Notes under the pieces: model-generated
Databases searched by the model: none
Told to the model about the DNA's origin: nothing
What the model saw: the letters and a program-made list of their open reading frames with translations, nothing else
DNA from: Natronococcus sp. AD-5
Lineage (GTDB): Archaea; Halobacteriota; Halobacteria; Halobacteriales; Natrialbaceae
Direction of reading: 5' to 3'
Length of the DNA: 64,000 nucleotides
Assembly: GCF_030734285.1 (NCBI RefSeq)
Contig: NZ_CP132294.1
Coordinates: 2,914,001 to 2,978,000 of the forward strand
In this document: positions 51,132 to 53,202 of the stretch, in pieces
Layout: every line of letters begins with the position of its first letter
Position numbering within the stretch: position 1 is the first letter of the stretch
Translations under genes and position numbers: made by a program

Positions 51132-51611
51132 TCAGAGGATCGGCTCGCTCTCGCCGTACACCGCGAGCGCGAGCGCCGTCGTGTACGTTCCCGACTCCGC
51201 CTGGCTGCTCTCGACGACGACGTTCGGATCGTCGAACGTCCAGTCCCGGAGCTCCTGGCCCGCGTCCAGCCCCTCGCGAACGCGTCGGTCGACGTCCTCG
51301 CGGTCCATCTCGCCGGCCGTCTCGTAGAACAGGCCGGGACCGTCGTCGGTCGACTGCGACCACGCGAGCGCCGCGCTCGCTCGACCTGGCCCGGCGGTGG
51401 TGGCTCGAGCCTCGACGACCGTCAGGCGCTCGCCCGCGGGTCCGAGGTCGGGTGCGGTACCGACGGCCTCGACGTCGACGCCGGCCGGGATGACGGACGA
51501 GACGGAGACGAGATTGTAGTTCTCGACTCCGGCGGCGGCGAGCGCGGCGTCGTACGACGCCATCGCCGTCGGCGCGGAGCCGGTTCCCCAGACGACGCGG
51601 ATCATGCTCAT
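51132..51611 (-). CDS. pdaD: Pyruvoyl-dependent arginine decarboxylase
   Basis: A 159-aa proenzyme starting MSMIRVVWGTGSAPTAMASYDAALAAAGVENYNLVSVSSVIPAG. By family, self-cleavage between Ser38 and Ser39 (VSS-VIP) leaves a pyruvoyl group on the beta/alpha chain. It converts arginine to agmatine, which archaea need for the agmatidine base of tRNA-Ile2 and for polyamines. A second ATG (51605) is two codons in. The gene is preceded by the palindrome array 51711-51956 and shares its strand with the PAN gene beyond. Confidence 0.92.
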   Translation of the reverse strand: MSMIRVVWGTGSAPTAMASYDAALAAAGVENYNLVSVSSVIPAGVDVEAVGTAPDLGPAGERLTVVEARATTAGPGRASAALAWSQSTDDGPGLFYETAGEMDREDVDRRVREGLDAGQELRDWTFDDPNVVVESSQAESGTYTTALALAVYGESEPIL

Positions 51612-51710: not shown

Positions 51711-51956
51711 GCGACGCCCGAAGACTTGAGGGCGTCGCGAGCCGGGGAGGGCAGGCGATTCACCGACAGTTACCGCGAGTGAACGAAGCGAACGGAGGGA
51801 GGAGTGCTTTTCATCGAAGCTGAGCGGGATCGAAGATCCCGCGAGGTCGTCGGCGCGAAGCGCCGACTGCAAGCGATTCCGAAGGAATCGCTCAGTCCAA
51901 AAGAGTGCTCCGCACTCTTTTGAAGATTTTGCCGAGGGCGCGGCGGAGCCGCGCCC
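51711..51956. repeat. Array of six palindromic hairpins with GNA triloops
   Basis: In the 361-bp spacer between the PAN gene (stop at 51973) and pdaD (start 51611) lie six perfect stems: 51711-51738 (9 bp, 10-nt loop); 51824-51842 (8 bp, loop GAA); 51849-51867 (8 bp, GAA); 51872-51892 (9 bp, GAA); 51898-51922 (11 bp, loop TCC, which is GGA on the other strand); 51936-51956 (9 bp, GGA). The five 3-nt loops are all of the form G-N-A on one strand and closed by C-G. Stem sequences are unrelated, so this is a shape repeat, not a sequence repeat. No gene is present. Confidence 0.85.
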
Positions 51957-51972
51957 GCAGAGCAAAAGTTCG

Positions 51973-53202
<1,230 letters not shown>

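Follow-up and report, generated by a model that had tools for sequence, protein, structure and literature searches.

The window analysed here is a stretch of 64,000 nucleotides from Natronococcus sp. AD-5 (contig NZ_CP132294.1, positions 2,914,001 to 2,978,000). On its minus strand, the gene for the proteasome-activating nucleotidase Pan2 (PAN2) is followed by a pdaD-like gene, and the DNA between them carries a group of inverted repeats (Table 1). An earlier note, made from the sequence alone, had reported six perfect inverted repeats here, and all six are found, perfect and where it had placed them. Direct inspection of the window sequence also bears out that five of them have 3-nt loops, each closed by a C-G pair; these five triloop palindromes are packed into 133 bp (51824-51956), and the one at 51849-51867 contains the GCGAAGC core attributed to one of the stems. 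The repeats do extend over 51711-51956, but the spacer is not of 246 bp, as had been claimed: from the pdaD start (51611) to the PAN2 stop (51973-51975) it measures 361 bp. The feature is also wider than the set of palindromes and is taken as 51711-51972, because the leader (~51742-51819) and an outer stem are conserved parts of the same element. Counted from 51711, the leader takes in the distal inverted repeat and ends with the GGAGGAGTGCTTTTCATCGAAG block. The four cassette hairpins (51824-51922) interrupt the left arm of the outer stem, separating its two halves, and at the other end the TAA of PAN2 abuts the element with zero gap.

Table 1. Features of the element copy in the window and of the genes on either side of it
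Feature	Position	Strand	Basis
Whole hairpin element; begins at 51972 directly after the PAN2 stop and ends at 51711 on the minus strand	51711..51972	-	Homologous copies and their boundaries
Distal leader hairpin, perfect, 9-bp stem, 10-nt loop	51711..51738	.	Similar-shaped hairpins before the CCGGGGAAGGGCAGGC motif in other copies; sequence comparison by eye
Conserved leader motif CCGGGGAGGGCAGGC	51742..51756	+	Recurrence in other copies
Conserved block GGAGGAGTGCTTTTCATCGAAG, immediately before the cassette	51798..51819	+	Comparison of copies
Outer stem part 1, CGAA; partner TTCG 51969-51972	51815..51818	+	Covariation in minimal copies
Cassette hairpin 1, perfect 8-bp stem, GCGGGATC-GAA-GATCCCGC	51824..51842	.	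Sequence, comparison of copies
Cassette hairpin 2, perfect 8-bp stem, GTCGGCGC-GAA-GCGCCGAC	51849..51867	.	Sequence, comparison of copies
Cassette hairpin 3, perfect 9-bp stem, AGCGATTCC-GAA-GGAATCGCT	51872..51892	.	Sequence, comparison of copies
Cassette hairpin 4, perfect 11-bp stem, CAAAAGAGTGC-TCC-GCACTCTTTTG	51898..51922	.	Sequence, comparison of copies
Outer stem part 2, TTTTGC; partner GCAAAA 51962-51967	51927..51932	+	Covariation in minimal copies
Core hairpin, perfect 9-bp stem, GGGCGCGGC-GGA-GCCGCGCCC	51936..51956	.	Found in every minimal copy
Closing half of outer stem, GCAAAA-G-TTCG, one G.G mismatch	51962..51972	+	Covariation in minimal copies
PAN2 (proteasome-activating nucleotidase Pan2)	51973..53199	-	NF047747, 751 bits vs cut-off 700
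pdaD-like gene (pyruvoyl-dependent arginine decarboxylase), next downstream of PAN2	51132..51611	-	TIGR00286, 60 bits, under cut-off 107

An order-2 Markov model predicts about 3.8 triloop stems of at least 8 bp per 64 kb. None of 200 windows simulated in this way had more than two such stems within 250 nt, whereas the real window has five, which rules out chance clustering of palindromes. A CRISPR-like or tandem array is also ruled out, the hairpins being distinct modules with conserved linkers and no single repeated unit. That the five stems are unlike each other, as had been noticed, is correct, but each belongs to a recurrent module type common to copies in other genera, so that within a module the sequence is conserved and it is the loop that is the variable part.

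A search of the same genome returned a 95% identical copy of 202 nt at a second locus and several partial copies, the homology stopping at the stop codon (window position 51973). Blocks of the element recur in relatives across many genera, where the middle hairpins are absent or different. Copies were detected by a covariance model built from minimal copies, and the counts, which derive from model searches and fetched stretches, are lower bounds, since the model comes from minimal copies and its filters lose weak matches. By this measure, there are 13 copies in this genome (a 14th row repeats one of these on the opposite strand). Among the Natrialbaceae, 57 of 61 genomes have copies, with 1 to 32 detected per genome, and in the class Halobacteria as a whole 74 of 145 do. 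A scan of the collection found them in Natrinema, Haloterrigena, Natronococcus, Natronorubrum, Natrialba, Halostagnicola, and Halovivax, and outside the Natrialbaceae in Halobacterium, Haloferax, Halegenticoccus, Halobellus, Halonotius, and Halomarina. The palindromes of the window thus belong to a modular hairpin element that is dispersed and widespread in haloarchaea and seemingly undescribed: no description was found in the literature searched, which consisted of open-licence papers, and an earlier report elsewhere is possible.

The core of the element was defined by aligning 15 minimal copies. Common to them are GGAGTGCTTTTNATCGAAGTTTTGCCGAG, a hairpin with a 9-bp stem and a loop of mostly 3 nt, and GCAGAGCAAAAGTTCG. 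The core consists of an outer stem, CGAA-x-TTTTGC / GCAAAA-y-TTCG, enclosing a 9-bp triloop hairpin, and both the outer stem and the inner hairpin covary. In the 15 copies, 7 pairs are changed on both sides (2.8 after shuffling), and the covariation score of 0.218, against 0.082 in shuffles, was not reached in any of 500 shuffles. Extra hairpins are optional cassettes: they enter the outer stem at a single point, and copies at the same gene may have or lack them. In some copies (L019, L046, L064, and L086), a second cassette type, GTGGTT-hairpin-TCATCA-hairpin-GAACGAC, is inserted on the opposite side of the core hairpin. The unpaired residues CGA / GCAGA around the core hairpin are conserved and resemble a kink-turn, in which a three-nt bulge and tandem G.A and A.G pairs separate two stems, but nearly all copies have one C more, and their second position is A or C. 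Together with the covariation of the core and the strong predicted folding of the window element on both strands (z of -5.8 and -7.0), these residues would fit a structured non-coding RNA or a protein-binding RNA motif, such as an L7Ae-binding kink-turn, that either strand could give rise to, the array being an expanded RNA fold. We consider this quite improbable. The best match of the element in an Rfam search scored 15 bits against a gathering score of 40, and no family reaches threshold. Most copies exceed the standard kink-turn by one residue, the kink-turn-like motif would be antisense to the adjacent gene, and G-U versus A-C mismatches, discussed below, show no strand bias.

Most copies also have a fixed position relative to genes. 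With flanking genes called by codon-position G+C and without annotation, and with distances from -8 to +12 nt searched, 135 of the 235 distinct copies have a coding frame that ends -1 to +6 nt from the element, 0 and 3 nt being the commonest distances. The side abutting the stop is where the element starts when the strand without the leader sense is read. The 3' UTR position that had been proposed for the window array, which comes directly after the PAN2 TAA, is supported by the copies elsewhere. The genes upstream of the stop-abutting copies fall into 40 clusters, the most frequent being those for the EngB GTPase (13), GyrB (12), uL16 (11), and PAN2 (8), followed by a relative of digeranylgeranylglycerophospholipid reductase (7), the large subunit of DNA polymerase II (PolD; 7), and PurF (6). 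The same core genes carry the element in several genera. Convergent downstream neighbours are not enriched among the copies; the element therefore goes with its upstream gene, and a bidirectional terminator is rejected for the same reason. About 35 copies are flanked not by a gene end but by conserved, mostly non-genic sequence, and many of these have complementary ends. The outer ends of such free-standing copies (GGTAASTACAG-like and CTGTASTTACC-like) look complementary copy by copy (L026, L028, L151, L152, L229, L240, and others), which suggests either terminal inverted repeats or one more covarying helix on the outside. At L151, a diverged form of the left gene's 3' end (GTAATCAAGATCGT...AACTGA) seems to be repeated across the free-standing element.

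Orthologous sites differ in whether they carry the element. Behind PAN2 within the genus, there is a minimal element in genome G001, an array in G000 and G005, a diverged variant with a compensated stem in G004, what appear to be decayed remnants in G002 and G006, and none in G003, G007, and G008. The expectation that related species would keep the shape while the sequence changed is supported, through compensatory changes. Of the gyrB-gyrA junctions, 15 are occupied and 38 empty, with spacers of 128-319 nt in the former and mostly 1-27 nt (up to 89) in the latter. On a gyrB tree, occupancy is scattered, with 14 changes in 53 rows and clustering no greater than that of shuffled labels, and at least six of the changes are forced by well-supported branches. 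Such patchiness in close relatives indicates that the element moves or is exchanged. Because all occupied gyrB-gyrA copies have a common gyrA-proximal tail, exchange of the whole junction between species is as likely as repeated insertion. The short spacers with a Shine-Dalgarno sequence, common to unrelated empty junctions, look ancestral. Cassettes of at least two extra hairpins are present in only some of the orthologous gyrB-gyrA copies and always enter the stem at one place. Upstream of gyrA, a Shine-Dalgarno 4-mer is absent from 14 of 14 occupied junctions and present in 26 of 37 empty ones, although with a common tail and ancestry these do not amount to 14 independent cases. Some empty junctions that have no Shine-Dalgarno sequence (L368, L373, and L375) have a TATA-like run, tatagaatatatagctac, after the stop codon of gyrB, a hint that gyrA may have a separate promoter there too.

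The earlier note had named two findings that would count against it, loop triplets with no excess of GNA and related strains lacking the array with a clean IS-like boundary. The outcome is mixed, as the excess is present (see below) and relatives with empty sites exist, which comes near the second finding, and the idea of a local array gives way to that of a dispersed modular element. Empty sites bring up the possibility of a selfish, non-autonomous mobile element (MITE or REP-like) with no host function, whose hairpins a mobilising enzyme would recognise and whose placement behind stops would result from the insertion machinery or from selection against damage. The dispersal of copies, the free-standing ones with complementary outer ends, and the nearly identical pair that this genome carries at unrelated genes are all consistent with such an element, which we hold possible but doubtful. 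Recurrence at the same housekeeping genes across genera would be unusual for a purely selfish element, and no consistent target-site duplication was seen when the flanks, including those of free-standing copies, were inspected by eye. Among transposases, the Y1 type was examined, and copy number does not go with it: genomes G077, G067, G163, and G106 have about 19-24 copies and no Y1 match, while the low-copy genomes G021, G028, and G083 have one. Mobilisation by Y1/RAYT is accordingly rejected.

GNA or TNC loops account for 142 of 248 distinct stem-loop combinations in elements (57%), compared to 118 of 422 in flanking DNA (28%) and 12.5% for uniform triplets, so that GNA-type loops do exceed expectation, as had been predicted; the fetched copies are biased to good matches and their sequences are related, and neither these loop statistics nor those of the Shine-Dalgarno sequence represent independent events. 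The 5' side of the closing pair is C in 93% of the combinations in elements, and the loop is 3 nt long in 324 of 414 stems of at least 8 bp. However, the loops are not conserved, as had been thought. A single stem carries up to 11 different loops, and in 58 cases a loop and its reverse complement are found on one stem, where shuffling gives 22 (maximum 42 in 2000 shuffles). With GNA on either strand (85 GNA and 57 TNC) and loops inverting in place, a fixed one-strand GNA motif of ssDNA is not the conserved feature either. For a nuclease target, also proposed, the analysis gave no supporting result. The arms, in contrast to the loops, stay identical, and do so without a clear preference for RNA pairs, since G-T (11) and A-C (6) are not significantly different among one-mismatch stems (P = 0.33). 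Selection on an RNA strand, sought through G-U versus A-C asymmetry, left no significant signal either way; with few mismatches, this only lowers the standing of a purely RNA-level account of the perfect arms.

Perfect arms with such mismatch counts, the excess of GNA/TNC loops and C-G closing pairs, and the strict loop length would also be features of a device working in DNA, with RNA uninvolved, in which the palindromes would extrude at gene ends as ssDNA hairpins or cruciforms, taking up supercoiling or serving as binding sites for a structure-specific protein. This we regard as unlikely, because the same marks are expected from functionless template-switch mutation, and because tight placement behind stops on one strand and the conserved unpaired residues of the core suggest reading in one direction. 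Hairpins of the d(GCGAAGC) type are exceptionally stable. That the loops flip while the arms remain identical without G-U bias points to template switching during replication. In yeast, template switching between short inverted repeats homogenises the arms and inverts the spacer, including gaa to ttc (PMC8604942), and template switching has been proposed to create and maintain hairpins (PMC8794818). The element resembles those cases in its perfect arms and inverted short spacers, gaa/ttc among them, but the reports concern yeast protein genes and RNA genes, whereas here a repeated family with many stem types is involved.

Several known systems invite comparison. Like the bacterial REP/BIME sequences of the GTAG and CGTC families, the copies are dispersed extragenic palindromes with short loops (often 2-3 nt in REP), sometimes clustered, and near or overlapping gene ends; REP even supply stop codons, and roles in termination and mRNA stabilisation have been proposed for them (PMC3733652). 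The copies are many here too, at 1 to 32 detected per genome. Unlike REP units, which are 20-40 bp, the element is 200-300 nt long and modular, and it is archaeal, with a covarying outer stem and a start that abuts a stop. No GTAG or CGTC tag is present at a constant place in the element copies inspected, and copy number does not follow the Y1 (RAYT) transposase; we therefore describe the element as working like REP without classing it as one. With REPINs and MITEs (PMC3116915), it shares short non-autonomous repeats with hairpins, many copies, and sites both occupied and empty, the last at orthologous gyrB-gyrA junctions. It differs from them in that neither a consistent target duplication nor a mover was found and most copies are tied to one side of a stop; complementary outer ends, which may or may not be terminal inverted repeats such as those of MITEs, were seen in free-standing copies only. 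For Haloferax, 503 termination sites have been reported with hairpins upstream of them, and one hairpin that was tested terminated 59% of transcripts (PMC7237163). Those hairpins, too, are intergenic, and they lie near transcript 3' ends, as the element would, but they are individual sites led by T stretches and not one homologous repeat family with cassettes.

We favor, with a probability of about one half, a REP/BIME-like 3'-end element, which would provide the structured mRNA 3' end of the upstream gene and separate the next gene from it. Such a role is plausible given that the Haloferax hairpins lie upstream of termination sites and that the tested one did terminate, and a stable hairpin is predicted a short way past the stop codon. 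In its favor are also the covarying core, the abutment of stops, the recurrence at the same core genes, the tie to the upstream gene, the patchy occupancy of one junction, the missing Shine-Dalgarno sequences at occupied gyrB-gyrA junctions, and the flipping loops. Against it stand the element inside gyrB-gyrA, where a full terminator requires a separate promoter for gyrA, and the roughly 35 copies with conserved non-genic flanks in place of a gene end. Many genomes of the class are without a detected copy and the same genes manage without the element, so it is not essential. In this 3'-end element, copies would spread by recombination or some form of transposition, and template switching in DNA replication would keep the palindromes perfect and flip the loops, with a very stable C-GNA-G foldback, on either strand, perhaps nucleating the switch. 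The RNA hairpin behind the stop codon would then end, protect, or insulate the transcript. A bolder proposal, which we offer tentatively, is that of a mobile 3'-end element present throughout the Halobacteria, its new perfect hairpins born and kept by GNA-nucleated foldback template switching, which, by landing behind stops, would repeatedly break up operons at junctions such as gyrB-gyrA, each side becoming its own transcription unit. If our favored reading is right, a large group of archaea has an uncharted 3'-end element at core genes (those for gyrase, a ribosomal protein, the proteasome ATPase, and the replicative polymerase), which differs between sister species and could rewire operons. 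The family would in addition preserve, in many natural copies, the traces of hairpins gained, arms repaired, and loops inverted, so that how perfect nucleic-acid stems arise could be tested in organisms that are easy to work with, as Haloferax and Natrinema are genetically usable.

Some copies occur in pairs. In genome G000, two elements in opposite orientation, C1:4103765-4103841 (+) and 4105121-4105223 (-), lie about 1.3 kb apart (L002, L112, and L113), one of the array type and the other with a long inner hairpin, and each follows a short Lrp/AsnC-like gene, the two genes having nearly the same C-terminal sequence. A second inverted pair in that genome, C1:2477849-2477952 (-) and 2478714-2478817 (+), is less than 1 kb apart and has a near-same long inner hairpin (L114 and L116). 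At L235:3251-3384, two almost identical cores stand in tandem 90 bp apart, possibly through a recent tandem duplication.
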